Shown here piece by piece: positions 2,237 through 55,179 of a stretch of DNA of 64,000 bases (position 1 is its first letter; each line of letters starts with the position of its first letter). The notes below the pieces were generated by a model. That model had not been told where the DNA came from, searched no databases, and was given only the letters and a program-made list of their open reading frames with translations. A program made the position numbers and the translations under genes. Source of the DNA: Siphonodentalium dalli (taxonomy: Eukaryota; Mollusca; Scaphopoda; Gadilida; Siphonodentaliidae); NCBI GenBank assembly GCA_032622095.1, contig CP136065.1, forward strand, positions 56,043,949 through 56,107,948, given 5' to 3'.

Positions 2237-2465
2237 CCCTTTGAGTGCCAGGGGCCGATCTCATCGGCCCTAAACCTACAAAATAAGTCTGTTAAAGAAT
2301 ATAAGAATAAATTATTAAAATTGTCAAAAAAAAAAAAAAAAAATGTTAGGCCAATGCATTCTCTTATATATGAGAGGCGACCTATGGTCAACTCGCATAT
2401 ATAAGAGAATGCATTGGCACAGGGTATATGGGTTGATACAAAAATCGGACCTGGCACTCAAAGGG
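2237..2465. mobile_element. TTAA-flanked hairpin element, family B copy 1
   Basis: TTAA (2233-2236 and 2466-2469) flanks inverted termini CCCTTTGAGTGCCAG. Inside is a ~70-bp hairpin with arms TATATAAGAGAATGCATTGG. An A-tract lies next to it. TTAA duplication and CCC/GGG ends fit a piggyBac-type MITE. Confidence 0.8.
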
Positions 2466-2469
2466 TTAA

Positions 2470-3414
2470 GTCTCTTTGAAAAGCCGACGAATATCCTAAC
2501 GGATGTTCATCTCTAGCAGTGTCCATTATATTTCATTTCTACAATGACACAGCATTCCCAACATGATAATAAACCGTTTCCAAATATGGAGTGCATTCCT
2601 TGCATAGTAAATGTTTGTGAGAATCGTTGTATTTAGAAATAGTTATAAATACAACAAGATGCGAAAGAATAATCAGTCATGAATATCATTGACTGATAAA
2701 AACTCGAAGATGATGTCTCCTATATTGCGATGAGTAAAATGAATTATGGATATACGTCTGTATTCAGTTTTCCAACAATAGTTGAGTTTGACAATGCATG
2801 GGGAATATTGTCAACGCGTCATTGACCTCAGATCTGTGAAGTGATCTGTTATGCCATAAACCAATGAAATCGCACGTAGTCTGTGTCACTCTCCAATGAA
2901 ATGGAGGAAATCCCTTCCAAACAGAACCTAATTTTAATAGAGAGTTCTAGAGATGTACATCCGATATAGGATTTTCGTTAGCTTTTCAAAGAGACTGTGG
3001 GATGATAAGCCCCAAAACCCTAATTTCATTGACAAAGTGCAGGCTCATTTAGAAATCTCTTTGAACAGTTTTGTCTGGCATCTTGGTTTGCCAGCACCCA
3101 AGGTGTAACCTCTTGTGAACACCATGTTTCTTTGAAAATCAGCTTGTGATATCGGTTTTTCAGCACCATTTTAAAACTTTGCAGCATATGAGAGCCCAAT
3201 AGATATCACAAGTTGGATTTAGTCAAAGGAATCTTTAATATATTAAACTCTTCAAATATCAAAACTGAAAGGTACCAGGCTTTCTCAGCAGAGGTGTGCA
3301 ATCTCCACTCTTACCCTGCTATGTGTGTTTTTATGGAATATCTGGGATAATTCCCAAAAGAAAAACAAATGAATTAAAAATTTCATCATGGATGGGTCGA
3401 ATTTTAGGGAGACT
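2470..3414. other. No feature recognised
   Basis: No conserved frame or element ends seen. Confidence 0.45.
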
Positions 3415-6809: not shown

Positions 6810-6977
6810 CAAGGCTTGAAATAGTGTGCCTGTCTCATTCTGCTTACACCTCAGCAGAATGAGGTTCCCAGAGGGTGAATTTGGTGATGCTAGCCCGCTA
6901 TGCGGGGTAGCATCACTAAATTCACCCTCTGGGAACCTCATTCTGCAAATGACAGACACACTATTTCAAGGCTTGGT
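6810..6977. mobile_element. MITE, family C copy 2
   Basis: Inverted termini AAGGCTTGAAATAGTGTG / CACACTATTTCAAGGCTT enclose a near-perfect hairpin of AATGAGGTTCCCAGAGGGTG. This is the clearest compact member of family C. Confidence 0.8.
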
Positions 6978-7804: not shown

Positions 7805-7808
7805 TTAA

Positions 7809-8207
7809 CCTCTTTGCTGCCATGACGTCCATAACTATTGCGGATGTAAAAGTGCATGTTGTGTGCTACAGTAATATGCTCTAAATAATCGACTCCTTAA
7901 CCACATCAGAATTATGGGTATTTTTTCAGGATTTAGACGGAAATTTGGCTTGTTGCCATTCACCGGAAAGCTCTCACTGAGCTTAACTTCAGCATTCTAG
8001 CAGTAGGACATTATTCTGAGAAATTGGTGCATAGGAATAACTGTATTTCGAGGTGTCAAACAGTGTATGATGTTAACAATAATAGCCTTTCAACTGAGTC
8101 AGTTTTATGGTTCTTGTGATATTCCCGTCATAATTTTCCACTAGAAAATGGCAATAACATCAACAGCCCAGCACACGATGTCATAACGTCATTTAGCAGC
8201 GAAGAGG
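7809..8207. mobile_element. TTAA-flanked element with nested half-MITE
   Basis: TTAA at 7805-7808 and 8208-8211 flanks inverted ends CCTCTTTGCTGCCATGACGT / ACGTCATTTAGCAGCGAAGA. A left-half copy of family A (7869-7980) is inserted inside, starting at a TA. A diverged relative of the right end lies at about 18545-18615. Confidence 0.7.
7869..7980. mobile_element. Palindromic MITE family A, single arm
   Basis: Starts CAGTAAT after TA and carries the arm through TTGCCATTCACCGGAAAGCT, but the complementary second arm is absent. It is a truncated or arm-deleted copy. Confidence 0.7.
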
Positions 8208-8211
8208 TTAA

Positions 8212-9311
8212 AGGTTCTCTAGGTATTTGCCAGTTGAATTAAAATACAGACTATTAAATAAGCTACTCATTCTATAGTCTGAAACATTTTAGAGGATTTA
8301 TTCGGTCTAGAAACTATCAAACGCAATAGGAAAGCCCTTCCTGTTGTGATTACAAAGTCCCATTCCGATCGGATAATAAATAAACCGAAAAATTTATAAA
8401 TAATACCACCACGGATATTCAGAGATTTCCGTGACTAAACTACGGATGGCGTAGTAGTGGGCGAGAAAATTAAAAAGACAGATTCGGAGCCGGAGTTTGT
8501 TATGCCGACTACGATTACTAATTGTAGTCAGCCGATACTAAAATGCGAAATTGGTTTGTTCACGTGGGGTGTATATATAGATTACATTGCTATATGAGGA
8601 GTTATTTCAGTAAATCAAGATAGCGTGGTTCACTTTGGAAGTCATTATCATATAGAAGACCATATATTTATACCAATAAAGTAATTAGTAGCGCTAATGA
8701 TAGTCGTTTTTGCAGCCATTAATAACATGCCATGGCTTGTTTGATTTGTTTAATCGATGTTACTTTAGTGCTAAATTTGATAGTCACTCAGCGACTATTC
8801 ATCAGTGTCAACCGACGAAATTGTTTGCACTATAAAATGAGACCCAATGTAAGTGGTAATGGCAGCAGACGATCGCATCAACTTTGTTATAAGAAGCTCC
8901 CAAACGTTATAAAAACACTGGGCAGAATAATGTTAACTATATATCAGGTGTTTCATTTGTTGTTCTTTGTAAGTTATTTCCAAATTCTCAATCATTCATA
9001 TATTCGAATGCCACCATGCCACATACAGATACCAAGCCTTGAAATAGTGTGTCTGTCATTTGCAGAATGAGGTCCCCAGACTTGAAAACTTCCTCTCTTG
9101 AAAGTCAATATCTGCCATCAAAACGTAAAATGAAACGAAAAAAAAAAAACGAACAACAAACAAAAACTGAAAAACAATGCCCGTCTGGCCTTCAATTTAG
9201 AAGAAAAAATTGCTGTAATGCCAAATTGCCTAATTAATAATTCGACAGTCTGTTGTGTAATCAAATTAATTCTTTTGTTTACACACTATCTGATCGTATC
9301 TTGACTGGAAG
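8212..9311. other. No gene; fragment of family C near 9033-9087
   Basis: A short piece of a family C end (TTGAAATAGTGTGTCTGTCA then AATGAGGTCCCCAGA) is broken off at about 9080. A 112-codon open frame at 8732-9070 shows no recognisable domain and overlaps this fragment, so I do not call it a gene. Confidence 0.5.
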
Positions 9312-10795: not shown

Positions 10796-11222
10796 CCCTT
10801 CTATGACTCACAGTAATGCCCTAATTAATCGACATCTTAACCACAGCAGAATTATGGGTAACTTTTCAGGATTTAGTCGGAAATATGGATTGTTGCCATT
10901 CATCGGAGCTCAGGCAACAAGTCATATTTCCGACTAAATCCTGAAAAGTTACCCATAATTCTGCTGTGGTTAAGAAGTCGATTAATTAGGGCATTACTGT
11001 ATAGCATCCTGAAATTTTGCTAAAACTGCCAATGCATTCTCACATATATAAGCATCATATATATAAGAGAATGCATTGGCCTAATAATATTTACCTTGAC
11101 CTTATAAGCCAGTGCATTTTCTAATATATTCAAGGTTCCCTATAGGAGACTCGCATATATAAGAAAATGCACTGACACAGGATCTTTAATGCTGCACCAG
11201 CACAGCTCCCGTCATGAAAGGG
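10796..11222. mobile_element. TTAA-flanked hairpin element (family B) with nested family A MITE
   Basis: TTAA at 10792-10795 and 11223-11226; termini CCCTTCTATGACT / GTCATGAAAGGG. Two hairpins of the ATTCTCTTATATAT type lie inside. A complete family A palindrome (10811-10999) interrupts the left end, so A inserted after B. Confidence 0.8.
10811..10999. mobile_element. Palindromic MITE family A, nested copy
   Basis: Runs from CAGTAATGCCC to GGGCATTACTG, near-perfect palindrome. Its flanks match the continuous sequence of the copy at 20119-20342 (TATGACTGGAGCCTCCTG), which confirms nesting. Confidence 0.85.
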
Positions 11223-12614: not shown

Positions 12615-12618
12615 TTAA

Positions 12619-13748
12619 CTCTTTCGCTGCCACCTGCCACCACAGACATACCCCCCAGTGCCACGCATCCTGTACATATATCCATGTATTTCAGGTATAT
12701 ATGGGTAATACATTATATCTCAAGCAGTTTCTAATATAATTAGTTGAAATTCACATGTATATAGACATAGGTATATCCTGTCGAATGCCGCCGTGGACAC
12801 GCCCACCAAGGTCACGTGACATTGGCGGCCATCTTGGATTAGTGGCTATTTGCCGGTATAGGTACAGTTTGTGTGGGTATGCATGGGTGTGTTGTTTGTT
12901 TTCTAATTTTCAACCCAATTATACGATGTCCAACAGTAAGGTACACGGGAGTAACATATATGAACATACTTTGGACATAAAATAGGTCACGTGACCTTGG
13001 CGTCCATCTTGGATTTATGCAAGTTGCCACCTATTTGTAGCAAAATGGGATACAATGGCGCACATTGTTGAGTTCGTGCTTTTGTTGCTTGAATATTCCC
13101 TGATAGGTACAATTCCAAATATAGATATATATATATAACCATGCATACCCACATGTATATATACCTGCAGGGGGACATATGACACTGCTCCGCCCCTTAT
13201 AAGTCACGTGATCTTGACGGCCATCTTGAATTTCAGGAAAATTGGTTTTTACGATGATTTATGTGAATTATATGGGTCACGCGGGCGTACGCATGGTCAA
13301 CTCACCAGCATAATTAATTTAGTTGCCTGTTATCACCACTGGAAAACGATACAATAGACAAGGGTTGTTCAAAACCAGTAAAGGTGTATTATAAGAAAAC
13401 AACATTTGAAAATAATCCATTCTGGAAAGGAAAGTTTTGGCAAAGATGGACGCCAAGGTCACGTGACCTATTTTACATGGATATATGTACAGGATGCGTG
13501 GCACTGGGGGGTATATTCCGGCTCTGACTGTACTCCCATAACGTTAGAAATAGCATTACCTTGATGACGTTGTCGCTTTAAATTGTTCGCGCGCAACAGT
13601 ACTACAGATAGAATCATTGTACACTGTCAAACATGCCGGAAAGAATAGAGTTATATCCCATACATTAGACTACATACCAAATTCGCAAAAATGCGCGATT
13701 GGCAGTGACACGGGAGTTCGCATTTATGCGCGTTTGGCAGTGAAAGAG
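12619..13748. mobile_element. TTAA-flanked 1.1-kb element rich in CACGTG
   Basis: TTAA at 12615-12618 and 13749-13752; termini CTCTTTCGCTGCCA and TGGCAGTGAAAGAG. Inner inverted blocks share GTGCCACGCATCCTGTACAT (near 12659 and 13489). GTCACGTGAC or close variants occur at four sites, mostly followed by GGCG-CCATCTTGGATT. No open frame resembles a transposase; it is a non-autonomous element. Confidence 0.7.
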
Positions 13749-13945
13749 TTAAGTCGGTTTTAATTTTATCTTGATTAGCTTTTCAGTATAGTACTGTAGA
13801 TTTATACAGTTTTAGTTTAATTAACTAGTCATCATATGCTGAGGCCTTAGATTTACACTACTAAAGTCTGTCGGTAGTTATGAAAAGTTTTAATATTTAG
13901 TTTTGTTAGGTGCAAATTGTGCTATAGTGTTAACTGCTGGTCTAG

Positions 13946-14169
13946 CCCTTTCATGACTGGGAGCTGCGCTGGTGCAGCATGAAAGATCCTGTGCCTGTGC
14001 ATTCTCTTATCTATGCCAGTCTCCCATAGGGACCCTCACATATATAAGAGAATGTACTGGCTTACAAGTCAAGGTAAATAGTGTTAGGCCAATGCATTTT
14101 CTCATATATATGATAATGCATTGGCACAGGGTTTTTGCAAAATTTCAAGAAACTCCAGTCATGAAAGGG
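13946..14169. mobile_element. Hairpin element family B, CTAG target
   Basis: Termini CCCTTTCATGACTGG / AGTCATGAAAGGG with CTAG directly on both sides (13942-13945, 14170-14173) in place of the usual TTAA. Two inner hairpins carry the ATTCTCTTATAT core. Confidence 0.75.
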
Positions 14170-14173
14170 CTAG

Positions 14174-15252: not shown

Positions 15253-15388
15253 GTTGAGGCCTAAGCAGAATGAGGTTCCCTGAGTGGGTGAATTTGGTGA
15301 TGCTAACCCCACGTGCAGGATAGCATAACTAAATTCACCCTCTGGAGACCTCATTCTGCAAATGTGAGACACACTATTTCCAGGCTTA
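15253..15388. mobile_element. MITE, family C copy
   Basis: AGGCCTAAGCAGAATGAGG on the left and TTCTGCAAATGTGAGACACA on the right enclose the family C hairpin, with moderate divergence between arms. Confidence 0.7.
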
Positions 15389-16235
15389 CATGCATCACCA
15401 TATAAAGTTAGTAGAGCATTCACTTGATTTCTAACTTATCAATCCATTACTGTGTTTTGGTTACTTGATACCAGTTTTTGTGGTCTGTTTTATTCAGGAG
15501 ATAAACGTACTCTGTTAAGTTGGATATTTTGGGATTTGAGCATGAAAACTGTTTTTGAACGAGCCAACTTGTCAGTGAGTTCACAAACCGTTTCCATGCT
15601 TGAATTCCCGAATTTCCAACAAAACATAGTATGTTTATCTCCATTTGTAAATCATTCCACCAAAAAAATTGAATGAAACTGCATGAAATTCGCTTTTCAT
15701 CAGTATCACATGCAATGACATGCGATATCCTATCCTATTTTCAGTGGTCAAATCTCTGGGTACGTTCTATGTATTTACTTGGAACAGTGCCCAATCAACT
15801 TCCTGTCAAACATATCTATAGTTAACAGCTGTGAGCTGTTGACCCCATTATGCAACTCCTGGCTGTGATATGACATATTTTACCTCATTGTCATGACATG
15901 TTGCTCTATTTAAAATTTGTTAACCTATCAGTGGCCGATGCTGGTGAATCGAAAACTAAAGTTAGCAACTCTCGAACAATCAGAATGCATGTTTTAGTGA
16001 CAAATATTCAACTTGAATAACAGTGAGGTATAAAATGCGTGACCAAATTGACAACTCACCAATTGGTGAACAGAATTTAGTTCAATACACATGGGCTATG
16101 ACAAAACAAACTGGGTGAATTTTCCTAGAGACCTAGCTTTACCATTGAATACTAGTACTTATAATAAATGATTTCAGAGGGCATATCTTACGATTTAACA
16201 TTGATGTATAACACTGAGCTATATATAGAACATGT
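15389..16235. other. No feature recognised
   Basis: No conserved exon found here, although the exon before 16578 might be expected in this intron. Confidence 0.4.
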
Positions 16236-16239: not shown

Positions 16240-16477
16240 CCCTTTGAGTGCCAGGGGCCAATCTCATCGGCCCTAAACCTACAAAATAAGTCTGTTAAAG
16301 AATATAAGAATAAATTATTAAAATTGTAAAAAATTGTAAAAAAAAGAAAGAAAAAGGTTTAGGCCAATGCATTCTCTTATATATGCGAGGCGACCTATGG
16401 TCGACTCGCATATATAAGAGAATGCATTGGCACAGGGTATATGGGTTGATACAAAAATCGACCTGGCACTCAAAGGG
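16240..16477. mobile_element. TTAA-flanked hairpin element, family B copy
   Basis: TTAA at 16236-16239 and 16478-16481; termini CCCTTTGAGTGCCAG. Nearly identical to the copy at 2237-2465, including the A-rich spacer. Ends 100 bp before the first MICU exon seen. Confidence 0.85.
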
Positions 16478-16631: not shown

Positions 16632-19600
16632 GTATGTCTCTTGTCATAACATGTTACATGTCACCATAGAAATGTAGTCCCTTCACCTGTTTTGTGTGGT
16701 TTCCATGTTCTCGTGTGCAGTGTCATTCTGTTTTAATGTTACTGAAAGTAATTTTTGGTTGAGTTGTATAACAAACTCAACCAATGATTTGATGAATGAC
16801 TGTGTTCATCCATCTGTCCGTCCATGTTATGACTTAACCATGATAATTTAACAAAACGTAATCAAATTTCGACCATATTTGGATCATTACTTCTACAAAT
16901 GAAGCTCTTGGGTGAGTTCGAAAACCTGTCCTGCCATAATTACTTTTAGATGTTAAATGTCGCCTGACACTTGGGTGTCTTTTTCACAACTTACAGGGTT
17001 ATAAAGGTGATCCAATTTCGACCAATTTTGGAACATATGTTTTCTACTCATGAAACTTACTTTATGAATATGTTTGAACCCAGAGAGGCATATGTGTGAA
17101 CCTGGAACCCATATTCTGTCCATTTAAGGGGTTTCTACATGAAATGATGTCAAACTGCTCCATCAGTTTTTCGCCATGGAAATATTTCAGAACATTTGTT
17201 TACAGAAACATTGTTTTTAAGAACAATGTTTACAGAGTCTAAACTACATGATAAATGATCAATCTAAATATTCCCTCCACGAAATTTTGTTGTTGCACTG
17301 GATGCTTCAGTTATTTCAAGAGTGAGCAGGAGTTACCAAAATTATTGCAATATCTTCACTAAACTGTGTTACTAGTATGTTGGTTGCACTGGCGATATTG
17401 TACTTTGCACTGCATAAACAATAAATTTCTTCAAACCATTCACTAAAGTAATAAATAACATGCTAAGGGCCTACAGTGAACATTTTGATTGATTAAACAT
17501 TTTATTTTAAATGCTGTTTCTGGTATAACATCTGCCAGGGTACCCTGAGTTAATACCACACCAAATTTTGCTGAAGTCAGCCCAGGTGTCTGGCATGCAA
17601 ATATGTTTGGGCCTAGATTATTTGGTTTGGTATATAAAGTGGGTAAAATTGACATCATTGCATATAGAAACCCTTTATTATTTCTACAGTCTGAGTAAAA
17701 TATGGACTATAAACAGCTGTGTGTAGATTATCTGACTTACTTTACAAAGAGTCCCATTACCATGATAAATTAGATTTAAAAGGGCCCACACATCTATACT
17801 GCTATATGTTCACACTGAGTATGGATGTAAGGTGTCACTGTGTGCTATACCTCCATAATAAGTATGGACCTACAGTAATGCTCTAAGTAATCGACTTCTT
17901 AACCACAGCAGAATTATTGGTAACTTTTCAGGATTTACCCGGTAGTCGGAAATATGGCTTGTTGCCATTCATCGGAAAGCTCTCCCCGAGAGCTTTCCGA
18001 TGAATGGCAACAAGCCATATTTCCGACTAAATCCTGAAAAGTTACCCATAATTCTGCTGTGGTAAGAAGTCGATTACTTAGAGCATTACTGTACTTCAGC
18101 CCACCAGCAGACGGCTATCACTTATAACGGTGACTCAGATATTAGTGTTTCGAACCAGTGTATCTCGATGTTTTAACACCTTTGCATTAGGCTTCAATTT
18201 TATGTGAAATCTTGCAAAAGGTTCGATTCGCTTTGAAATGATAGCGGAGAAATTTGATAAATTTTCAAACCCTCGAAAAAGACCTTAAAACATTGATCTT
18301 GTTACAGAAGGGAGATAACCACCTATGTATCAATCATTAGGGTACAAATGTAGCCTTTTCTAATCTGATTTAATTTATCCATTCAATTTTCCAATATAAT
18401 AAGGTATAATCAGCCAAAATATGACAGCGTAGTGTGACTAAATCAATTCATGGTTCGATTCAATGAAAAATATGTGAATTGCAGTAGCCTACTTTGCAAG
18501 GAGTCAAATTTAAGGTTTTCGCGACATTCCTGCTAAATTGTTTGACTGCAAAATGGTCACAGCATTAACAACCAACACACGCATCATGACGTCATTCAGG
18601 AGTGATGAGGTTGGAGACTGGAATAAATTAGCCATATTCGAGACAATCAGTTGCGAATATGACCCTAGTTGAGTTGTTTTATGCTGTCTTGGTTGTTGTA
18701 TTATTGTTAAGACTGGAAAAATTAACCATATGAGAGACAATCTGTGAGGCTATTTTAATAGTTAAGTCAGGATTTAACTTGTCCACTCAGAGGAGAAATG
18801 CAGATTTGTTCACATTCCATCCATTTGTCATTTCATTGGATGAGATCATAGTTTTAGCATGCTATGATTGGCTGACATTGAAGTCATATTTTTCGGATGG
18901 TATTAAATGTGTCTCTGTGAAATAATTACAGCTATCTATACAAAGCTGATTAACAGCCTACTTTTAATTCAAACTGTATTTTATTATTCAGTATGCATGC
19001 AATATCTTGGTATTGGGATTTTCACATATTTATGTCCCTCATGCCAGCTGTGTGATAATTTCACTACATTTTTGTATATACACAAATTTTTCATAAACTA
19101 TACATGTACTACTATTGCATTGGGACATAAATATGATGAGATGATTTTGGCATGTTCTCTGAGGTGCCTAATAATAGTGTCAGCATGATTAATTTTGGAG
19201 AAAATTCCCAATTATCAATATTATTTGGCATTGAGACAAAGAGTGAAATTGCCATCACTATTATTAATTTCAGCCTAAATCCCCACTCATCACGATTATT
19301 AGGCACCTGAGAGTATTGGTTGTTGAATATATATGTATATATAACTATTATGAATTGAGTTTAATTCAGTGCTAATTTAAGACTAAATTTAAAGAATTAC
19401 ACATTGACATTTTAAATTATCTCAACAAAAGGAGATGCTGTTTCTTCTATTCTGGTGTGAGGGCAAGCCTGAGTTTAGTGCAGAATGAGGTCCCCAGAGG
19501 GTGAATTTAGTTAAGCTATCCCTCATAGTGGGCTAGCATCGCCTAAGTCACCCTCTTGGGACCTCATTCTACATGACCTCATCTGCTATAGGAGACTCAG

Positions 19601-40495: not shown

Positions 40496-40887
40496 CCCTT
40501 TACCCAACAGAAGGGCCCTGTGCCAATGCATTCTCTTATATATGCGAGTCGACCATAGGTCGCCTCGCATATATAAGAGAATGCATTGGCTTAACACATT
40601 ACAAATTATAAAATTGTTAAAGAATGTAAGAAAAAATGGTAAAAAGTGTTAAAAAAAGATTTTTTTTAGGCCAATGCATTCTCTTATATATGCGAGGCGA
40701 CCTATGGTCGACTCGCATATATAAGAGAATGCATTGGCACAGGGCATAACTGTAACTATCACAATATGGTCAAGGAGCCGGTTCCAATGATATCCATATT
40801 TGTATGGTTCTATTGAGACAGACCGAAGATATTTTAGGCTGTTGAAGCTTTATTTGGCCGGTTTTGGCCGGTTTGTTGGGTAAAGGG
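40496..40887. mobile_element. TTAA-flanked hairpin element, ACCCAACA type, inverted copy
   Basis: TTAA at 40492-40495 and 40888-40891; ends CCCTTTACCCAACAG / TTGTTGGGTAAAGGG. Two hairpin cassettes (40515-40590, 40668-40740). Nearly identical to 27374-27764 in reverse. It lies 300 bp after the MICU stop, probably in the 3' UTR. Confidence 0.85.
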
Positions 40888-41052
40888 TTAATTCAAGGTC
40901 TAATTCCATAAAGTCTGAGATGGCAGCATAGAACTGTTAGTTGTTTGCAATAGATTTCATCTTAGAAGTGTTATTATAATATAAATTCCTTGCACCTTTA
41001 TTGTGATACTTGGCTGTGATTATTATGAGCTTGTTTGGCCATGACATTTATC

Positions 41053-41190
41053 TCTTTCATGACGGGAGCTACGCTGGTGCAGCATTAAAGATCCTGTGCC
41101 AGTGCATTCTCTTATATATGTGAGTCTCCAAGAGAATGTATTGGCCACATGGTTTTTGCCAAATTTCAGGAAACTCCAGACATGAAAGGA
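41053..41190. mobile_element. Family B element, internally deleted
   Basis: Ends CTCTTTCATGACGGGAGCT / CTCCAGACATGAAAGGA then TTAA; one partial hairpin (CATTCTCTTATATATGTGAG). Also inside the probable 3' UTR. Confidence 0.65.
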
Positions 41191-42378: not shown

Positions 42379-42621
42379 CCCTTTAATGATGTGAGCTGCG
42401 CTTGTGCAGCATTTAAGATCTGAGCCAGTGCATTCTCTTATATATGCAAGTCTCCTCTAGGGAGCCTTGCATATATAAGAGAATGCAATGGCTTACAAGG
42501 TCAAGGTAAATATTGTTAGGTAATGCATTCTCTTATTATTATTATCTCTTGTTAGGCCAATTTATTCTCTTATATATGCGAGGCTCACTATGGGTTTTAG
42601 CAAACTCAGGATGCTCCAGGG
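42379..42621. mobile_element. TTAA-flanked family B element
   Basis: TTAA at 42375-42378 and 42622-42625; left end CCCTTTAATGATGTGAGC, right end GATGCTCCAGG. One complete hairpin (42425-42492) and a partial second one with an internal TTATTATTATTATC stretch. Confidence 0.7.
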
Positions 42622-43018: not shown

Positions 43019-43425
43019 CCCTTTCAGTGCCAGGGGCCGATCTCATCGGCCCTAATTTAAGGTCTGTAAAATTTTTGGGTATGCTTAAGCATGCTATAGC
43101 GAATTTAAAAACAAACTAGATAAAACCTTAGGGGCATGTTATAACGCAAAACTATCACCAAGTATTCATAGTAATAATTTTGATTCCCATGAAAAACGTG
43201 AGATTCACTGGCACTAAACCTACAAAATAAGTCTTAAAGAATATAAGAAAAAATTATTAAAATTGTAAAAAATTGTAAAAAATAATAACAAATGATGAAA
43301 AATTGTTAGGCCAATGCATTCTCTTATATATGCGAGGCGACCTATGGTCGACTCGCATATATAAGAGAATGCATTGGCACATGGTATATGGGTTGATACA
43401 AAAATCGGACCTGGCACTCAAAGGG
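43019..43425. mobile_element. TTAA-flanked family B element with ~170-bp insertion
   Basis: TTAA at 43015-43018 and 43426-43429; ends CCCTTTCAGTGCCAGG / CCTGGCACTCAAAGGG. Compared with 2237-2465, extra sequence lies between CATCGGCCCTAA (43054) and ACTAAACCTACAAAATAAGT (43213). Confidence 0.8.
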
Positions 43426-43429: not shown

Positions 43430-44507
43430 TGCTCTTGATTATGGTTGAATGAATAAAATCTTATTCTAGCATAAGAACAAGTGTTGCCTATGTGAAAACA
43501 TTAACCACTTTCTCATTAATATTTGGAGGGATTGTGCAAAGTAGGTCTGTAAAATTTCTTGTTGGTTTTAGTGGCATATAAATATTATATTCCTTCTCAC
43601 TGAGCTATGCTTCTTTTCGGACAACTGAAGCTTGCTTAAAAGTGAAAGGATTCTCCGTGCTTGGAGATAGAGAACGATTGATTCTTCTCTATCATTTATT
43701 ATTTCATTTGAGCCACTTTAAAGTAGGAAATGTGATTTTTTTTAACAATATCTTGGATAGTTTCAAACCCCAAATTACAACTAAAAAACTTCATCTAAAT
43801 TGAAACGCAGTGTCAAATATTCCTGAAGTAATATTAAATTGTTCATGCACACACGAAGCAATCAACATATCATGCTGAGCCTGTGTTACCTATATTCTAA
43901 TATATCAGCTCACTTCTGAAATTTAAAGCCTAGAATTAGAATGTATAGCAAAGGCACCAGAAACCCTGACAGTACATTTATCTTCAAAGCGATAGAATAT
44001 GGAATGCCTCAGATATTCATCCGTTTCAAGTAAGCTTTCCATTGACGATATTGTACTAATTTTTATGTAATAAAATCTTGATCATCTTGATAGATTCATA
44101 ACAGACTCTTCCCTTTTATTGTTTGACAAAATTGTAACTGACATACTCCAAAGTTGCTTAAATTTTCATACTTTTCTCTTGCTTTTTCAACTTTCAACAG
44201 CTTTCAATACCATTTTCTATTCAGTCAAATTTACAAGATATCATGAGGATTGAACAAAGATTATGAACTTGACTTATTAAATATGTTGAAAAGATTCTAC
44301 TGCTGAGGAGCACATGTTATGTTCAAGTCCTGAACAAGTGCCATTGAAAAAAAGAAGCCCCGTGTCATTTGAATATCGATAATATTTTATTCGGAGAATA
44401 TTGTGTAATATAGGAAAAGTTGTCTTCTAATCAAGTTTGTTCAAAATGCTCCATATATGGCCATACTTTATTGAAACATCTAGGCTTGTCCCTGGCTTGC
44501 CCATGTA
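43430..44507. other. Intergenic, no feature recognised
   Basis: AT-rich; no gene. Confidence 0.45.
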
Positions 44508-44720
44508 CAGTAATGCCCTAATTAATCGACTCCCTAACCACAGCAGAATTATGGGTAACTTTTCAGGATTTGGTCGGAAATATGGCTTGTTGCCATTCAT
44601 CGGAAAGCTCTCGGGGAGAGCTTTCCGATGAATGGCAACAAGCCATATTTCCGACTAAATCCTGAAAAGTTACCCATAATTCTGCTGTGGTTAGGGAGTC
44701 GATTAATTAGGGCATTACTG
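44508..44720. mobile_element. Palindromic MITE family A, best copy
   Basis: TA at 44506-44507 and 44721-44722; CAGTAATGCCCTAATTAATC at one end and the exact complement at the other. The 213-bp palindrome has almost no arm mismatches, centre GCTCTCGGGGAGAGC, suggesting recent insertion. Confidence 0.9.
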
Positions 44721-46418
44721 TATGTTTCTGCAAAATGGCCAAACAAATTCAGAATTGGCCAAAATAATTTCCTGGCAAGCACAGACCCTGCTAAGAATTT
44801 AATGCAAGCATACTTATCAGACTTGAACATAAGATGTTGCTTTAATTTATTATTTAAGACATTATTGATTGAGATATGTCACAAACCATGGCAACCACTT
44901 GTTATGTCCTATTTGAACTGTTTTATTGTTGATGTGAATATAATTAATTTATTATGTAAATAAATTAAAGATTTCCTAGCTATTTGAGTCTTGAATTTCT
45001 CTTCTTGGATTCAGAAATCCTTATGTCTCTATGGTCCACCTCCACTACAAACAACATCTTTTATTGGCCAGAAAGAAAAAAACAAAGGAAAACAAGTGAA
45101 CTGCTCGTACATTTTTTTATTTGCTGGACAGCTCCTACACATGGTCACTTATGTTCTACAAGACAAACCATTAAGAGAGTTTAACATCTTTTGCTGTTTG
45201 TCCAACTCCAAACCTGTGCATATTTGACACAAATACACAAAGCATACACAATGCAATAGCACATGCAATGAAATGAGGATTAAACATCGAGCCTGCATGT
45301 TGATATTAGGTTTGCTCCTCTTTGAAATTATTGAAATTTTGGCGATCATATAAGAATTAAATGTTGTACGAATCACAACCGTATCAGTATATCACCTAAA
45401 ATCATATTTGTTGAGCTGTCCTCAATTTAACTCATTGCGGTATTTACCAGAACACTTATGCAAAGTCCTACAACTAATGTTACTGTATTTTAGAATTATT
45501 TGTTGCTGAAAGCATAAACATTGGCTTTTATACCAGGGAACCCTGACCATGGATGTTGAGTATATTCTGGGGCATCCACTGCCAAGGGGCAAGCTTGTTC
45601 AAAGCCAAGATATTTGTGGCGTAAGGAGCAGTTTATTTTCATATAAACTACCGATATTGTATATTACAATTATATTTTACATAATTGTTAGAATGGCATG
45701 AAGGTGAAGGCCAAAAACACCCACATGCATGAATACACACACATACATGTACATGAATTGTTATATGTGAATAAATTGTAATACATTTTATATCTCTAAT
45801 ATGACCGCATTCCTGCACTCGGTAAACATTGTGAAAAATTAAAGGTGGCAATGTCCAATACTATCTCATTTGAATTCATTCCTACTGTTGAAATGGGGCA
45901 GGTGGGTGGGTAATGATTGATGCCGATATTTATAGATTCATGGAGCTAAAAAATAACTTGCCTTGTTGACATAAATGGATATGATGAAAGGACGTTTAAG
46001 GGTGTATAACATAACATAACATCACCCACATACAATTGTCACAATTGTGAATACAATTATCGCAAACCAGTTAGTTCTTCCATCAAAATAACTTGATCTT
46101 GCGCATACTATTTGATGCGTAATTAAATATAATAATGTGTAAATCGGCCATTGTTCTACCTACAGTTGTTAACAGAAAGATGTGGATGTTCTTATAAGCG
46201 TTAGAGCCGTTAAGGTTGCTGCAAGTTCCCAAGCATAAAATTGGCTATAAATATAGCCTTTCATCTGTTACAGTAGATTGTTAACAAATATTGCTTTCAA
46301 CATGTGGAATCTCATCATTGGAGGGTTATTGATAATGGATATAAGGACAAATTCCTTCTATTTTATTTCATGCTCTTCTTTGTAATAATTGTTTAACAAT
46401 CTTGCTATAAATTTCCAG
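44721..46418. other. Intergenic, no gene recognised
   Basis: Short open frames (for example 44984-45227) show no family resemblance. Confidence 0.45.
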
Positions 46419-47571: not shown

Positions 47572-47661
47572 TCAACTTCCTCTATAGGTGCTGTACCCAT
47601 ATGGACTCAGCAATAAAGGCACATGGTAATGTTCCGTTGAATCTTCAATTTCAAAGACAAT
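47572..47661 (-). CDS. URAH: HIUase exon 3 (terminal, YRGS)
   Basis: The acceptor (minus strand) is tttttcag. The 29 codons encode [18 protein letters not shown] and [11 protein letters not shown], then TGA. The [10 protein letters not shown] block carries the second catalytic His, and YRGS is the family's C-terminal signature. A candidate poly(A) signal for this strand (AATAAA on the complement) lies at 47132-47137. Confidence 0.96.
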
Positions 47662-50600
47662 CTGAAAAATTAAATTTAAATAGCTGTTATCAATCATGCC
47701 ATATGGAGTAGTAACTCTACATGTTCCTGAAAAGAATGTCAAAATAAACTGAAATTGGAATTAAATGGACATGGATAGCTCGAACCCCAACCTGTTTCTT
47801 GTATTTTTTTTATAAATGATGGTGAATTTAAAGACAATATTCTGCATGGCGGGTTAGTCGCCTCGATTAATATGCATTTTATCATCTGCAAATTAGGGGA
47901 TATAGAAACTGATCAGAATGGAATAAGTAACTTAAAAACAATGTTAATTTGAGATTATAGATACTTCCCAGAAGATGAAGCCCAAGCAGAATGAGGTCCC
48001 CAGAGGGTGAATTGTCTGATGTGAGCCCTCTGTGGACATCATTCTGCAAATGTCAGACACTATTTCAAGACTTGTCAGATGGTGCATGTGGTCGCCAGGT
48101 GCTGACAGCTACCAACAGTCAGATGGTGCATGAGGACGTCGGGTACCAACAGTCAGATGGTGCATGTGGTCGCCAGGCGCTGTCAGCTACCAACAGTCAG
48201 ATGGTGCATGTGGTCGCCAGGCGCTGTCAGCTACCAACGGTTAGATGGTGCATGTGGTCGCCAGGTGCTGACTGCAACCAACGGTCAGATGGTGCATGTG
48301 GTCGTCAGGTACCAACAGTCAGATGGTGCATGTGGCGGCCAGGTACCAACAGTCAGATGGTGCATGTGCTGACAGATACCAACGGTCAGATGGTACATGT
48401 GGTCGCCAGGTGCTGACAGCTACCAACGGTCAGATGGTGCAGGTGCTGACAGCTAACAACGGTCAGATGGTACAGGTGCTGTCAGCTACCAACAGTCAGA
48501 TGGTGCATGTGGTCGCAATATGCTGACAGCTAACAACGGTCAGATGATGCATGTGGTCGCCAGGTGCTTTCGGCTACCAACGGTCAGATGGTGCATGTCA
48601 TCGCCAGGTGCTGACAGCTACCAATTGTCAGATGGTGCAAGTTGACACTGCCAACGATCAGATGGTACATGCTGTCGCCAAGTGCTGTCAGCTACCAACG
48701 GTCAGATGGTGCATGTGGTCACCAGGTGCTGTCAGCTACCAATTATCAGATGGTGCATGTTTGCGCTGCCAACGGTCAGATGGTACATGCTGTCGCCAAG
48801 TGCCGTCAGCTACCAACGGTCAGATGATGCATGTGGTCACCAGGTTCTGTCAGCTACCAACGGTCAAACAGTGTACATGGTTGCCAGGGACTGTAAGCTA
48901 CCAACAGGGAGATGGTGCATGCGGTAGCCAGTTGTTCTCGCATATCAATAATGATGGATCACATTTATCCATACACAAAACGTCTGATCATATGCCTCAT
49001 CCGACCGTTGGTAGCTGACAGCACCTGTCTGGTAACCCATGCCTCATCTGACCATTGGTAGCTGACAACACATGTCTGGTAATCCCATGCCTCGTATGAC
49101 CGTTGGTAGCTGACAACACATGTCTGGTAATCCCATACCTCATCTGACCGTTGGTAGCTGACAACACATGTCTGGTAATCCCATGCCTCATATGACCGGT
49201 GGTAGCTGACAACACATGTCTGGTAATCCCATGCCACATCTGACCGTTGGTAGCTGACAGCACATGTCTGGTAATCCCATGCCCCATCTGACCGCTGGTA
49301 GCTGACAACACATGTCTGGTAATCCCATGCCCCATCTGACCGCTGGTAGCTGACAACACATGTCTGGTAATCCCATACCTCATCTGACCGCTGGTAGCTG
49401 ACAACACATGTCTGGTAATCCCATGTCTCATCTGACCGTTGGTAGCTGACAGCACCTGTCTGGTAATCCCATGTCTCATCTGACCGTTGGTAGCTGACAG
49501 CACCTGTCTGGTAATCCCATGTCTCATCTGACCGTTGGTAGCTGACAACACATGCCTGGTAATCCCATGTCTCATCTGACCGTTGGTAGCTGACAACACA
49601 TGCCTGGTAATCCCATGTCTCATCTGACCGTTGGTAGCTGACAACACATGCCTGGTAATCCCATGTCTCATTTGACCGTTGGTAGCTGACAACACATGTC
49701 TGGTAATCTCATGCCTCATGTGAAATTCGTAGCTGACAGCACCTGTCTGGTAAATCCATGCCTCATCTAAACGTTGGTAGCTGACAGCACCTGTCTGGTA
49801 GTCCCATGCCTCATCTGACCGGTGGTAGCTGACAGCACATGTGACATGTCTGGTAGTTCGATGCCTCGTCTGACCATTGATAACTGACAGCACCTGAAAT
49901 TTTGAAGTTCTCTATCTAACCTCCCTATTTGGACGCTCCCAACGTGAGAAAATCATAATGGAATATACAGTCATCAGCGGTTTATATAAAGACTTCATAT
50001 CTGGTCATTTTATTGTCAAACTATGTGTCATATCTTACCTCCGCATAAGGATAGAAACCTTTTGTACCAATGCTGCGGAAGTATTCTCCTGTTTCAAATC
50101 TGATCTTATAAATACCAGGCTCTAACCGGCTGTTCTCAAGAAAACTGCTTCTGCCATCACTGTTAGTTTTCCTGCAGTATTATACAAAAGAATTAGCTCA
50201 AGATAATATAATTACATACAGTAATTAAAACTACTTCTATGTTCTTGGTCCATTCGTTGTACGTCCATATTTCGTTTCCGGTTGATGACTTCAGTTAATA
50301 TTGACTGAATGGAATGCAATTTGGTATGCATGTTTGAGACCAGTCTGGGTGAACGTCGACTCTATATTTGAAATGAATATTTAGGTATGAGTTTACTCAG
50401 ACTGGTTTGAGACTATATAATACAGGTCAAGTTCAAACTTCGATTCCGTCTGCCAAATTTTACCAGAGTTCGGTCATTTTCGACTTGCAGTCAGGCGTGA
50501 TTGGTCACTACCAAACTTGGTATATGGCTGACTTGTCTCAATATATAAGCTGTGGTTGAAACGGAGATCTGTCCAATGACTCACCAGCCTTATGAACCAT

Positions 50601-53600
50601 TTTTAAATGTATTCATTTTCGGCTGATAACTCCAAGTTATGGAATCATAATGAAATGCGTTTGAAATAAGCCAATGGTTGTATTATACAACAGGGGCGGT
50701 CCTCTTGTTAGAAAATACTCAGCCTCCAGTTGGCCATTTTATTATTTTTTATTTGGCAGCCTTCATCGCTGAAGAAAGGCCGTCAAATAGAAAAATAAAT
50801 AAGGTCAAGTGGAGGCTTGAGTATTAGCTAATTCATATTTTTCCTATATTTTGATGCTATTAGTTTACAAAAGAACCAATGAATGTGTTTGAATAAGGGA
50901 ATTAACTTCACAGGCTCCTGGGGAAAATTCCGAAAATACCAATATATAGACTATACCAGTGTATATTGGTATTTTAGTAATTTCCCCCAGGGCCCGTGAT
51001 TAACTTAAGGTGGAAGTGAACTTTAAATGAAAGTGTCAATGACACTGTAGCTCAACTTGGAAAGGGAATAATTTAATGTATTACAGTCAATGGAGCGATT
51101 AGGAATGTGGAAAGTTAAATGTCTAATACTAGTTTATAGACATGAAGATAACAGTAAAATCCAAGATGGCTGCTGGCGGCCATGTTTTCAGCCGAATGAC
51201 CCCAAAATGAGTCGTTCCCATCTACATCTCATCGTTAACATCCATGACAAATTTTATGACGTTCAGACTAAAGGTACGACCTGTAGCCCATGCTAAAGAA
51301 TTTAGTCATACAAAGAGTAAAACCCAAGATGGCTGCTGGCGGCCATGTTTTTTGGCCGAATGATCCCAAAATGACTCGTCCCCATCTACATGTAATTATT
51401 AACATTCTTTACATATTTTATGATGATCAGACTAACGGTACGACATGCAGCCCGTGCTAAAGAATTTAGTCATACAAAGAGTAAAATCCAAGATGGCTGT
51501 TGGCGGCCATATGTTTCGGCCGAATGACCCCAAAATGACTCGTTCCCATCTACATGTCATTGTTAACATCCATGACAAATGTTATGATGATCAGACAAAC
51601 AGTACGACCTGTGGCCCGTGCTAATGGATTACATTTTGAAATACAAAGAGTAAAATCAAAGATGGCTGTTGGCGGCCATGTTTTTTGTCCGAATGACCCC
51701 AAAATGACTCGTTCCCATCTACATTCCAATTTCAACAGCCATGACAAATTTTATGATGATCAGACCAAAGGTACGACCTGTAGCCCGTGCTAAAGGATTT
51801 AGTCATACAAAGAGTAAAATCAAAGATGGCTGTTGGCGGCCATGTTTTTTGTCCGAATGACCCCAAAATGACTCGTTCCCATCTACATTCAAATTTCAAC
51901 AGCCATGACAAATTTTATGATGATCAGACCAAAGGTACGACCTGTAGCCCGTGCTAAAGGATTTAGTCATACAAAGAGTAAACTCCAAGATGGCTGCTGG
52001 CGGCCATGTTTTTTGGCTGAGTGACCCCAAAATGACCCATTCCCATCTACAAGTCATTATTAACATTCATGACAAATTTAATGATGATCAGACTAAAGGA
52101 CTGACCTGAAGCCCGTGCTAAAGGATTTAGTCATACAAAGAGTAAAATTCAAAATGGCTGCTGGCGGCCATGTTTTTCGGCCGAATGACCCCAAAATGAC
52201 TCGTTCCCATCTACATGTCATTGTTAACATTCATGACAAATTTTATGATCAGACTAAAGGTACGACCTGCAGCCCGTGCTAAAGAATTTAGTCATACAAA
52301 GAGTAAATTCAAGATGGCTGCTGGCGGCCATGTTTTTTGGCCGAATGACCCCAAAATGACTCGTTCCCATCTACATGTCAATATTATCATCCATGACAAA
52401 TTTGATGATGATCAGACGAACAGAACGACCTGTGGCCCGTGCTAATGGATTAAATTTTGAAATCCAAGATGGCCGCTGGCGGCAATGTTTTTTGTCCGAA
52501 TGACCCCAAAATGACTCGTTCCCATCTACATTTCATGATGATCAGACTAAAGGTACGACCTGTAGCCCGTGCTAAAGGATTTAATCATACAAAGAGTAAA
52601 ATCAAAGATGGCTGCTGGCGGCCATGTTTTTTGGCCGAATGACCCAAAATGACTCGTTCTCATCTACATGTGATTATTAACATTCTTGACAAATTTCATA
52701 ATGATCCGGCCAAAGGTACGACCTGTAGCCCGTGCTAAAGAATTTAGTCATACAAAGAGTAAAATCCAAAATGGCTGCTGGTGGCCATGTTTTTGGGCCG
52801 AATGATCCCAAACTGACTCGTTACCATCTACATGTCAATATTAACATCCACGACAAATTTCATGATGATCAGACAAACAGTACAACTTGTAGCCCGTGCT
52901 AATGGATTGAATTTTGAAATCCAAGATGGCTGCTGGCGGCCATGTTTTTTTTTCCGAATGACCCCAAAATCAATAGTTCCGGTCTAAATGTTGATGTCAA
53001 TAGCTATGACAAATTTCATAATGATCTGACCAAAGGTACGACGTGTAGTCTGTATTGTTGACAAATCACACACACGGACAACGGACGACAAAGCCATGGC
53101 AATAGCTCAAACTTTACAAAGTAAAGTTGAGCTAAAAATCAATGGCTCCCATCTAGAGGTCACCCGAAGACCAGTATGAAGTTTGGTTATGATCGGATGA
53201 GGGATGTGGTCTGTAGGGTGAGCCAAAGGATTTAATCATTCAAAGAGCAAAATCCAAGATGGCCATGTTTTTCATCGCGGCTGCGACCTGTAGCCCGTGC
53301 CAAAGGATTTAGTCATGCAAAGAGTAAAATCAAAGATGGCTGCTGGTGGCCATGTTTTTTTGGCCAAACGACCCCAAAATGAATCGTTCACATCTACATG
53401 TCAATATTAACATCCATGACAAATTTCATGACGATCAGACGAACAGTACGACCTGTAGCCCGTGCTAAATGGATTGAATTTTGAAATCAAAGATGGCCAC
53501 TGGCAGCCATGTTTTTTCTTCGAATGACCCCAAAATGAATCGTTCCGGTCTAAATGTTGATGTCAACAGCTATGACAAATTTCATAATGATCCGACCAAA

Positions 53601-55179
53601 GGTACGACCTGTAGCCTGCATTGTTGACGCCTTACGTACACACGTACACACGCGCGCACGGACGACGGACGACAAAGCCATGGCAATAGCTCAAACTTTA
53701 CAAAGTAAAGTTGAGCTAAAAAAGGAAGTTTGTCATGGCAACATCTGAGATACAATATAAGGAATAATCTTCATTTTCTGATACCAATAGACAGTACATT
53801 GTATAAACACTTTGGTGGCGATTGTACTATGTTTGTGATTTATTAGTGTAAACATATTTTATTGCATAATAACGCAACGGGATTGAGACACGAGTTGTGC
53901 AACTTACAAAGCGTCCCTCCCCCACATAATTGTATTACACAAAACGAACATTTGTGATTTATTCCCAATGTGTTGTGCACAATGATCTAAGGATATCTGT
54001 AAAATTCAATTCCAATTCAATCTCTAATAGACGCAACTGAAATATTTACTTTATGTAATTCAATATACATGACATATCATACATATACAGGCTTATAACG
54101 CTTCCATGACTTGAGATTCCTGAAATTTTGCGAAAACCCTGTGTCAAGGCATTCTCTTATATATGAGTCTCCCAAAGGGGGCCTCGCATAAATAAGAACA
54201 CATTGGCCTAACAATATTTACATGGACCATGTAAGTCAGTGCATTCTCTTATATAAGCAATGCTGCACCAGCGCAGCTCCCATCGTGAAATGGATAAATG
54301 ACATATTAGGTATTTTATTGCAAAAATATATATATGATGTGCTATAATTGTCAATGTCCCTCTGAATCATTGAAAAATATTGTAAATATAATTGAATGTG
54401 CCAGCAGGGAAGATGGGCCCCGTGACTAGAAGCAGACAATGTTTCATTGATCTCAGATCATCTTCTTCGTGTTACATGTTAGAGCGGTTCATAAAACTTC
54501 TAACTTCGCCCATAAAGATGGCCAATCATGATTCATCACAGTGTGCTGGGAGATTCTGACCAATCACAGAACAACTTACAGTCTGTTGGTAAATTCTGCT
54601 CAACACTAAGTGTGATAGTCACGAACGAATAGCAGCCTTGTTTTTATTGCTGGCTTTGGTATGAAACGTTTCGTGTCGAATTGCTAACTAACTAAATCGC
54701 TGTGTTATGTTGCATGGACTTCGTTTAGAGATGGAACATAGCTGGCTGAATGCTGGATAACACTTTCCCGCCTCGGCCTCAGAACATTACAGTTTTTTGT
54801 GCCTAACGGGCGAAGTCAGAAGTCTTATCAATGTATACCTCTCTATTATAATGAATCCATATATACAATTGGAAATAAATATTGTTCAAACCAACCTGGT
54901 GTCAATGAGTTGGAAATTTGAGTTTCTTATATTTGGATCTCGAGACAGTGACACAGACACTCCAGCAGCAGGCTTTCCGAGAGCAGTGTCGAGGATATGT
55001 AACGTGATTGGTGGATTGGAAGCCGCAGCTGTACTAACAGCTGCTAAACATCTATGCTCCGCTGAGAACTCAACATCCTCACGATCGGAATTGGCCACGA
55101 CATCAGCCATCGGAAATATATTGTCGTTATTTGCACCCGAGGTCTGTGGAAGAGAACGTTTCCTGATAAGTTTAACCAT
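47572..55179 (-). CDS. URAH: 5-hydroxyisourate hydrolase (HIUase, transthyretin-related), complete, three exons
   Basis: Joined exons on the minus strand are 55179-54896, 50171-50039 and 47661-47572 (507 nt, 168 residues plus stop). HIUase hydrolyses 5-hydroxyisourate, the product of urate oxidase, to OHCU on the way to allantoin. Diagnostic features are [19 protein letters not shown] (first catalytic His), NSDGR (catalytic Arg region), [33 protein letters not shown] with the second catalytic His, and the C-terminal YRGS tetrapeptide that separates true HIUases from transthyretin. All splice phases agree (2/1, then 0). About 54 residues precede the conserved core; no clear PTS2 peroxisome signal was seen in them. 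The gene converges on the MICU gene. Intron 1 holds Helentrons, intron 2 two minisatellites. Confidence 0.94.
47940..48078. mobile_element. Family C fragment
   Basis: AAGCAGAATGAGGTCCCCAG to TTCTGCAAATGTCAGACACT and ATTTCAAGACTTG; the inner hairpin is shortened. It directly abuts the minisatellite that follows. Confidence 0.6.
48079..48940. repeat. Minisatellite 1 (44-bp unit, about 20 copies)
   Basis: The unit is built of TCAGATGGTGCATGTGGTCG, CCAGGTGCTGACAG and CTACCAACGG. Period 44 measured between 48156 and 48200; some units are shortened. Lies in HIUase intron 2. Open frames through it are by-products of the repeat. Confidence 0.92.
48996..49892. repeat. Minisatellite 2 (48-bp unit, about 18 copies), inverted relative to 1
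   Basis: Unit GACCGTTGGTAGCTGACAAC plus ACATGTCTGGTAATCCCATG and CCTCATCT. Period 48 measured at 49561/49609. GTTGGTAGCTGACAGCACCT is the reverse complement of part of minisatellite 1. Because 48 is divisible by 3, a 298-codon minus-strand frame stays open, but its product is a pure repeat with no support as a gene. Confidence 0.92.
50039..50171 (-). CDS. URAH: HIUase exon 2
   Basis: The acceptor (minus strand) is ctgcag and the donor gtaaga. One base completes Arg (TR), then 44 codons encode [26 protein letters not shown] and [10 protein letters not shown]. These are core transthyretin-fold strands and the conserved FYPYxE segment. It ends in phase 0. Confidence 0.95.
50714..50825. repeat. 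Small hairpin element (AATACTCAGCCTCCA ends)
   Basis: AATACTCAGCCTCCA on the left and TGGAGGCTTGAGTATT on the right are inverted repeats, with a partly paired interior (GGCAGCCTT / AAAGGCCGTC). Confidence 0.6.
50901..51005. repeat. Small hairpin element (ATTAACTTCACAGG ends)
   Basis: ATTAACTTCACAGGCTCCTG / AGGGCCCGTGATTAACT with inner arms AAAATACCAATATA / TATATTGGTATTTT. It lies 20 bp from the Helentron start at 51025. Confidence 0.65.
51025..53138 (-). mobile_element. Helentron (pearl-like) with ~12 tandem 164-bp units
   Basis: Read on the + strand it begins AAATGAAAGTGTCAATGACA (hairpin) and TAGCTCAACTTGG and ends GCAATAGCTCAAACTTTACA with AAAGTAAAGTTGAGCTAAA. Units carry AAGATGGCTGCTGGCGGCCA, TGACCCCAAAATGACTCGTT and CGACCTGTAGCCCGTGCTAA; period 164 measured at 51651/51815. 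Same family as 29761-32016 in opposite orientation, without coding remnant. In HIUase intron 1. Confidence 0.85.
53139..53719 (-). mobile_element. Second Helentron copy, head-to-tail with the first
   Basis: It begins abruptly inside a unit (ATGGCTCCCATCTAGAGGTC, as in 22648-23298), has two more units and ends with the same CATGGCAATAGCTCAAACTT / AAAGTTGAGCTAAA terminus at 53719. Confidence 0.75.
53720..54098. other. Intronic, no feature recognised
   Basis: AT-rich HIUase intron 1 sequence. Confidence 0.45.
54099..54293. mobile_element. Family B element with ATAA flanks
   Basis: Left end CGCTTCCATGACTTGAGATT, right end CAGCTCCCATCGTGAAATGG; ATAA on both sides (54095-54098, 54294-54297). One and a half ATTCTCTTATATA hairpins. 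Confidence 0.65.
54298..54895. other. HIUase intron 1 proximal part
   Basis: No further feature recognised between the family B element and the exon 1 donor. Confidence 0.45.
54896..55179 (-). CDS. URAH: HIUase exon 1
   Basis: It starts at an ATG ([12 protein letters not shown]...) and runs 94 codons plus two bases to a gttggt donor after ...FQLIDT-AG. The first ~54 residues are a low-conservation extension, followed by the core start [20 protein letters not shown] second in-frame Met (residue 24, at 55110) is an alternative start that would give a 145-residue protein, closer to the usual ~115-140. The extension is not obviously a signal peptide. Confidence 0.9.

Follow-up and report, generated by a model that had tools for sequence, protein, structure and literature searches.

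The question raised by this locus is whether the interior of a small mobile element can outlast its ends. The locus is a 64,000-base stretch of the genome of the scaphopod mollusc Siphonodentalium dalli (assembly GCA_032622095.1, contig CP136065.1, positions 56,043,949 to 56,107,948 of the forward strand), the whole of which is called the window here, and the elements are miniature inverted-repeat transposable elements (MITEs), whose classification rests on their ends and whose interiors are usually regarded as filler. A first-pass annotation of the window had reported a hairpin of about 65 bp that occurs in about twenty copies, one or two per element, inside elements with three distinct types of inverted termini, and it had taken the interior to be the conserved part. 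We found that this hairpin, named H1, is carried by three families of elements, T1, T2, and T3, and that the changes between the family consensus hairpins are mostly matched on the two arms. The reading that we prefer, with a probability of about 55%, is that these elements go back to a common two-hairpin core whose termini turned over and whose palindrome was kept by self-templated correction, by selection, or by both, and that they form a group like the CMITEs of Acropora corals. All statements about families are drawn from three T1 elements (T1a to T1c), two T2 elements (T2a and T2b), and ten T3 elements (E1 to E10) in this one window.

H1 cassettes and the elements that carry them

The H1 arm, AAGAGAATGCAYTGGC, was found 44 times in the window when up to 2 mismatches were allowed, whereas the mean in 100 shuffles was 0.17, and all 44 matches fall inside the 15 elements. 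The hairpin reported earlier is therefore real, and the twelve sites that had been listed for it are correct to within a few bases. There are 24 cassettes, whole or broken, in the 15 elements (3 in T1, 4 in T2, and 17 in T3), and these were aligned in the orientation from the element end inward, that is CCCTGT, hairpin, and CYTAA; a small arm fragment in E9 near 42519 was left out of this count. An intact cassette is 69 bp long: a stem of 27 bp is followed by one T×C mismatch and by a tip stem of 5 bp, which is closed by the loop ATA. T1 elements have one hairpin (hpB), T2 elements have two in inverted orientation (hpA and hpB), and most T3 elements have two or the remnants of two, which agrees with the one or two per element noted before. 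All 7 cassettes of T1 and T2 are whole; among the 17 of T3, 7 are near full length (65-69 nt), 6 have the tip deleted, and 4 are halves. The distance from the hairpin to the nearest element tip is 44-47 bp in each of the 15 cassettes of T1 and T3 that were measured, out of 20, and in T2 it is 26 bp (hpA) and 149 bp.

The three terminus types were confirmed, with the refinement that they have a common start, CCCTTT. The T1 elements end in CCCTTTGAGTGCCAG and the T2 elements in CCCTTTACCCAACAG; beyond the common start 2-5 of the next 14 positions agree between families in ungapped comparison, and T1 and T2 additionally share CAG at positions 13-15. Terminus matches at up to 3 substitutions number 24 and they all lie within the 15 H1 elements. 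Further ends among the piggyBac-like and hAT-like elements of the window are CCCTTTCATGAC and CAAGSCTTGAAATAG. All five T1 and T2 elements are flanked by TTAA on both sides, and among the seven T3 elements with both ends visible exact TTAA was found on both flanks of two, E1 and E9, the others having CTAA/TTAA (E5), TTAT/TTAA (E8), ATAA/ATAA (E10), ATAA/AGAC (E3), and CTAG/CTAG (E2). With these flanks E2 extends over 13942-14173, with CTAG instead of TTAA, and ATAA is also present at the sole visible flank of E4.

H1 elements are short, those with two visible ends measuring about 140 to 430 bp, and none of the 28 stop-to-stop open reading frames of at least 110 amino acids overlaps any of the 15 elements. 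Their terminal inverted repeats (TIRs) start with the CC[C/T]T that serves as a criterion for piggyBac (PMC2872659), with substitutions in some T3 copies. Judged from these features of the sequence, the H1 elements are MITEs of the piggyBac superfamily, the autonomous partner of which is presumed. The core was also considered as a nested transposon with CCCTGT...ACAGGG ends and this was rejected, as by eye no target duplication was seen around the core in T1, T2, or T3. A weak arm-like match at 714-756 was rejected as a cassette; it sits in a different TTAA pair at 700-925.

Conservation of the cassette between families

The cassettes of T1b, T1c, and all four T2 copies are identical at 69 of 69 positions, and that of T1a has 2 differences. 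Beyond the hairpin one pair was compared, T1b and T2b; here the spacer next to hpB matches at 53 of 61 aligned sites, with indels, at a score above that of all 1000 shuffles, and the alignment score of the sequence outside hpB was reached by 153 of 1000 shuffles. In this pair, what T1 and T2 have in common extends past the cassette and comprises hpB and the adjoining spacer. At the spacer rate of 8 changes in 61 plus indels, the probability of no change in 69 positions is about 6e-5, and the claim that the interior is conserved where the termini differ has held up in this comparison. T3 is older, with pairwise identities of about 70 to 94 percent among the blast matches listed and with target sites that are often degenerate, and its consensus hairpins are identical to those of T1 and T2 at 63 and 64 of the 69 positions. 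The T3 spacer and ends have no match to their T1 or T2 counterparts among the self-comparison matches listed.

A tree was built from 23 of the 24 cassettes, and many of its supports are low; it mixes the copies of T1 and T2 and places T2 hpA, with modest support, beside T2 hpB and T1 and not with T3 hpA. The first-pass annotation had suggested comparing separate trees of the cassette and of the termini over all genomic copies. Simple clock-like descent does not fit the cassettes compared here. T2 hpA and hpB are the same over 69 bp and their inner flanks differ, hpA having CTTA as in T3 hpA and hpB having CCTAA as in T3 hpB. Because the two are identical despite these distinct old inner flanks, the T2 hairpins look homogenized within an ancestral two-hairpin frame.

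Paired changes in the stem and the tip

When the T3 hpA consensus is compared to that of T1 and T2, its 6 differences make up 3 complementary pairs, one being a change of A-T to G-C near the base and two being in the tip. The chance that all the differences would be paired is about 7e-6, assuming that the arms change independently. In the T3 hpB consensus the same two tip pairs are changed. The tips are thus CTCCC/GGGAG in T3 and CGACC/GGTCG in T1 and T2, and one copy with a T3 end, E7, has the intermediate CGCCC/GGGCG, which favors stepwise descent. Among 10 distinct cassettes, the alignment cells changed on both sides number 10 compared to 3.0 after shuffling (reached by 0 of 500 shuffles), and the pairs changed on both sides number 5 compared to 2.2 (reached by 16 of 500).

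Individual copies and breakage at the tip

T1a lies at 2237-2465 on the plus strand with hpB at 2350-2418, T1b at 16240-16477 (plus) with hpB at 16363-16431, and T1c at 43019-43425 (plus) with hpB at 43310-43378. In T1c about 155 bp of unrelated sequence is inserted (about 43056-43209), next to a CTAA. T2a is at 27374-27764 on the minus strand (hpB 27523-27591, hpA 27670-27738) and T2b is at 40496-40887 on the plus strand (hpA 40522-40590, hpB 40670-40738).

Most of the T3 copies are damaged, and often at the tip of a hairpin. E1 (10796-11222, minus), into which a palindromic MITE flanked by TA is inserted at about 10810-11000, has a tip-deleted cassette at 11028-11080 and another at 11108-11176. 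Likewise, E2 (13946-14169, plus) has cassettes at 13993-14061 and 14088-14125, the latter tip-deleted, E3 (20119-20342, minus) at 20163-20200 (tip-deleted) and 20228-20296, and E5 (27089-27313, plus) at 27135-27180 (tip-deleted) and 27208-27269 (partial tip deletion). E4 (21029-21157, minus) has lost one end and keeps a cassette at 21043-21111, E8 (41052-41190, plus) has a single short cassette at 41098-41145, E9 (42379-42621, plus) has a mostly deleted right terminus, a cassette at 42424-42492, and a half cassette at 42556-42594, and E10 (54099-54293, minus) has a cassette at 54143-54207 and a half cassette at 54235-54266. E7 (35447-35536, minus) is broken just beyond the tip of its hairpin, which reads CGCCC-ATA-GGGCG.

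E6 (33733-33964, plus) is a fusion. Its first 55 bases (33733-33787) belong to an element of a second hairpin group, H2, which is described below, and they are followed from 33788 by T3 hpA, the junction being 3 nt before the hairpin loop; the half cassette runs to 33826 and a further cassette lies at 33854-33920. E7 and E9 are also broken within about 10 nt of the loop, and the breakpoint of E10 is lower in the stem and not at the tip. The hairpin tip is a fragile place where unlike elements can join. E6 itself may be an in-place deletion between neighboring insertions, and there is no sign that it moved as a chimera.

A second hairpin group in hAT-like elements

H2 was discovered with a covariance model built from H1 and with an independent palindrome scan. 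The model favors any long stem and it gave 65 matches at E ≤0.1 with both strands counted, including a TA-flanked family and other hairpins, which were left out of the cassette count. The palindrome scan gave 17 in total, of which 8 are H1, 3 are H2, 5 belong to the TA-flanked family, and 1, at 15497-15642, is a lone weak palindrome. The H2 module occurs at 11 places in the window, and its 93-nt consensus is a hairpin with 39 bp below a T×C mismatch, 5 bp above it, and the loop ATA. Two copies of the hairpin, in inverted orientation, are present in three elements, at 1136-1560, 19464-19889, and 28169-28410. Four H2 elements have both ends visible, and perfect 8-bp target duplications were found in two of them, GTCTGCTC on both sides of the element at 6810-6975 (hairpin 6854-6946) and CATATATG on both sides of that at 28169-28410; the flanks at 19464-19889, TGTGAGGG/CATGAGGG, agree at 6 of 8 positions and the duplication at 1136-1560 is not clear. 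Less complete copies are at 15260-15388 (minus; one hairpin and one end visible), at 9033-9080 (plus; the terminus and the beginning of the stem), and at 47985-48074 (minus; tip deletion). An 8-bp target duplication is a trait of the hAT superfamily, and the H2 elements are classed as hAT-like from the length of this duplication only.

The tips of H1 and H2 can be aligned as ATGC-(2-3 bp)-T-CNNNC-ATA-GNNNG-C-(2-3 bp)-GCAT. The two consensuses have the same polarity, the same T×C mismatch, a 5-bp tip stem, an ATA loop, and ATGC/GCAT below the mismatch, and the remaining stems look unrelated. The hairpin architecture is itself part of what the covariance model searches for. In 16 aligned rows the mismatch bases are T and C in 10 of 10 rows of H1, and in H2 they are T in 4 of 6 and C in 5 of 6; an exact ATA loop is present in 7 of 10 rows of H1 and 4 of 6 rows of H2. 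The tip of T3 matches that of H2 at 11 of 15 positions and the tip of T1 and T2 at 9 of 15. Given the shared architecture, the chance of the 11/15 match is 4e-3 to 7e-3 and that of the loop and mismatch about 1e-3. Covariation in the tip alignment is above that in all 500 shuffles (22 cells compared to 7.8, and a score of 0.386 compared to 0.155), values that are inflated because the rows split into two related groups. There is no excess of pairs changed on both sides (4 compared to 4.0 shuffled, reached by 331 of 500) and no clear excess of further pair types (reached by 81 of 500). The TA-flanked family was rejected as a third bearer of this tip, its loops being CCC, GGG, or longer with no mismatch at that place.

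How the hairpin may have been kept

The explanation that we favor starts from one two-hairpin core, arranged as end, hpA, spacer, hpB, and end, of which T1 would have retained hpB only. The H1 elements would be small non-autonomous piggyBac-type MITEs mobilized in trans by a transposase through their CCCTTT termini at TTAA, and the bases inside CCCTTT would have turned over between families, presumably when an element shifted to a different piggyBac transposase. In active lineages the 69-bp palindrome would persist with its stem almost fixed and its tip altered mainly by matched pair changes. A probable way in which this happens is that the palindrome templates its own correction by template switching at the extruded hairpin; in the available part of PMC8794818, matched double changes in stems are put down to template switching. 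Gene conversion from one cassette to the other and a fairly recent spread of T1 and T2 probably contributed as well, and some selection for the paired structure is likely. After insertion, copies would decay freely, the tip being the weak point for deletions and fusions.

Several points weigh against this explanation. The sample is small, with 3 T1, 2 T2, and 10 T3 elements in one window. Within T1 the cassette is not specially conserved, as the three pairs have 2, 2, and 0 substitutions in 69 compared to 3/159, 4/157, and 8/167 outside it, and identical cassettes would equally result if the core had recently passed from one of T1 and T2 to the other. The T3 hpB consensus, drawn from few copies, has one unpaired difference at position 24. 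Single T3 copies have 5 double changes where 3.6 are expected, of which 3 are complementary, and with no clear excess the dead copies seem to decay freely. Finally, the T×C mismatch was never corrected, and plain template-switch repair would be expected to fix it eventually. The favored explanation accounts poorly for this mismatch, and also for the tip if it does recur in hAT-like elements, and a hairpin module that crosses superfamilies is therefore kept as a live reading.

The odds of the other explanations overlap and they are not mutually exclusive. That nothing special is at work, H1 being an ordinary group of MITEs with young copies in which the mechanics of mutation alone keep the palindrome, is a real possibility if not the probable one: the two T2 copies have 5 differences in 391 sites and the T1 copies 5 to 8 in about 230, single T3 copies decay without clear coordination of pairs, and the TA-flanked palindromic family likewise retains long perfect stems. 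However, T3 is old, and its hairpins are still close to those of T1 and T2 where its spacer and ends have no listed match. The first-pass annotation had thought of a module exchanged between TTAA-targeting families, and a recombinogenic hairpin that passes between elements, even piggyBac-like and hAT-like ones, through breakage or template switching at the tip would account for the identity of the T1b, T1c, and T2 cassettes despite their different ends, for the agreement of the H1 and H2 consensuses, and for the breaks in E6, E7, and E9. We regard it as rather unlikely, since the break in E10 is lower in the stem, the likeness of the tips is modest, was noticed after the fact, and falls to 9/15 in T1 and T2, and the homology of T1 and T2 reaches into the spacer as descent predicts. 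Exchange across superfamilies is possible. A more specific form of it, that the conserved-tip hairpin (T, C-NNN-C, ATA, G-NNN-G, and C, with covarying NNN pairs) is a module common to piggyBac-like and hAT-like MITEs, owes its persistence to a host factor or to hairpin-based recombination and not to either transposase, and passes between elements by tip breakage, is in our judgment unlikely. The earlier interpretation is thus partly supported: the conserved interior with differing ends stands, and the exchange itself is less favored, the intermediate tip of E7 speaking for stepwise descent and E6 being possibly an in-place deletion.

Two explanations give the palindrome a function of its own. 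It could be a site in cis that is bound by the transposase, by analogy with the sites of the cysteine-rich domains of piggyBac and piggyBat, and the near-fixed spacing of 44-47 bp in T1 and T3, the flanks of which look unrelated, would fit this, as would the palindromes at piggyBac and piggyBat ends that are bound by a pair of C-terminal domains according to the accessible part of PMC11707139. We consider it improbable, as the palindromes given there are far shorter, the T2 spacings are 26 and 149 bp, and a like tip is present in hAT-like elements, for which a different transposase is expected. Alternatively, transcripts of the cassette, which is known here from DNA, could fold into a long stem and be processed into small RNA or bound as such. 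The predicted fold of the T2 hairpin is very stable (-54.3 kcal/mol, z -14.3), all five H1 cassettes tested gave predicted folds more stable than all 200 shuffles, and the changes preserve pairs, but any palindrome folds in this way, and no known structured RNA family in Rfam matched at its gathering score across the 64000 bases. A role as RNA thus appears very improbable.

If the hairpin interior does outlive changes of the ends, its tip perhaps recurring in another superfamily, a piece of non-coding DNA can be the persistent unit and its ends replaceable. Either self-templated repair or selection could keep long genomic palindromes paired, and H1 offers a natural test between the two.

Other features of the window

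The TA-flanked third palindromic family (CAGTAATGC...GCATTACTG) has near-perfect arms and occurs at 454-634, 10810-11000 (the copy inserted in E1), 17871-18093, 32305-32523, and 44506-44722, with parts near 7867, 26412, 29371, and 46877. TTAA pairs without a cassette are present at 12615-13752 (CTCTTTCGCTGCCA ends) and at 7805-8211 (CCTCTTTGCTGCCA ends), the second of which holds half of a TA-flanked repeat. A structure of about 2 kb at 56917-58890 is flanked by TTAA; its inverted ends, AAACTTATGTGTCCGC, are 16 bp long and enclose minisatellite arrays running in opposite directions. Long tandem arrays with units of about 155-164 bp lie at 51153-53616 and 29847-30853, and judged from their consensus units they are the same sequence in opposite orientation. 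A Pfam scan of six frames gave one plausible match, an exon-like stretch on the minus strand at 54886-55248 that resembles the HIUase/transthyretin family; it is weak (Pfam E 1.6e-4, below the cut-off; PDB sequences E 0.0023) and it fits an ordinary eukaryotic genome.

Comparison with known systems

In exact-match searches the H1 arm, the T3 subterminal stretch, the T1 end, and the H2 arm had no match in viral contigs, where the T2 end was not searched, and the H1 and H2 arms had none in bacterial and archaeal genomes, which is expected because this is eukaryotic sequence. A text search of the literature for the sequence letters gave nothing relevant, and among the open-licence papers listed in the literature searches none was seen that describes a hairpin common to piggyBac-type and hAT-type MITEs. 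For MITEs with shared interiors, the papers listed contained a single real precedent, PMC2872659. What is new here is the H2 hairpin, which shares the tip of mismatch, 5 bp, and ATA loop with H1 and is carried by MITEs with 8-bp duplications. Such duplications are shared by hAT-type MITEs, and inside the H2 elements there are one or two hairpins whose tip resembles the one in the piggyBac-type group.

The Kolobok-type T2-MITEs of Xenopus have the same TTAA target as H1, but going by the available part of PMC6004289 their ends begin with AGGRR and not with CCCTTT, and this identity was rejected for H1. Hairpins maintained by template switching are described for RNA genes in the part of PMC8794818 that was available, whereas the T×C mismatch of H1 stays uncorrected. 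In piggyBac and piggyBat, palindromes likewise lie near the ends of TTAA-targeting elements, and as given in the accessible part of PMC11707139 they are 14-19 bp long compared to 69 bp in H1.

The closest likeness is to the CMITEs of Acropora corals, which are piggyBac-like MITEs with an interior better conserved than the TIRs, a feature that their authors considered the most unusual (PMC2872659). Both groups target TTAA, and both comprise several families with TIRs that are mostly of the CCCTTT type but otherwise different around a conserved interior (PMC2872659). This arrangement of families with different TIRs around a conserved interior, which is found in the H1 elements, is therefore already known from the coral CMITEs and is not new. 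A search of the window with the 60-bp CMITE consensus gave no real match to the CMITE interior, the best hit being 16 bp long (E 0.10). Unlike that of a CMITE, the interior of an H1 element is a long and near-perfect hairpin that is often doubled in inverted orientation.

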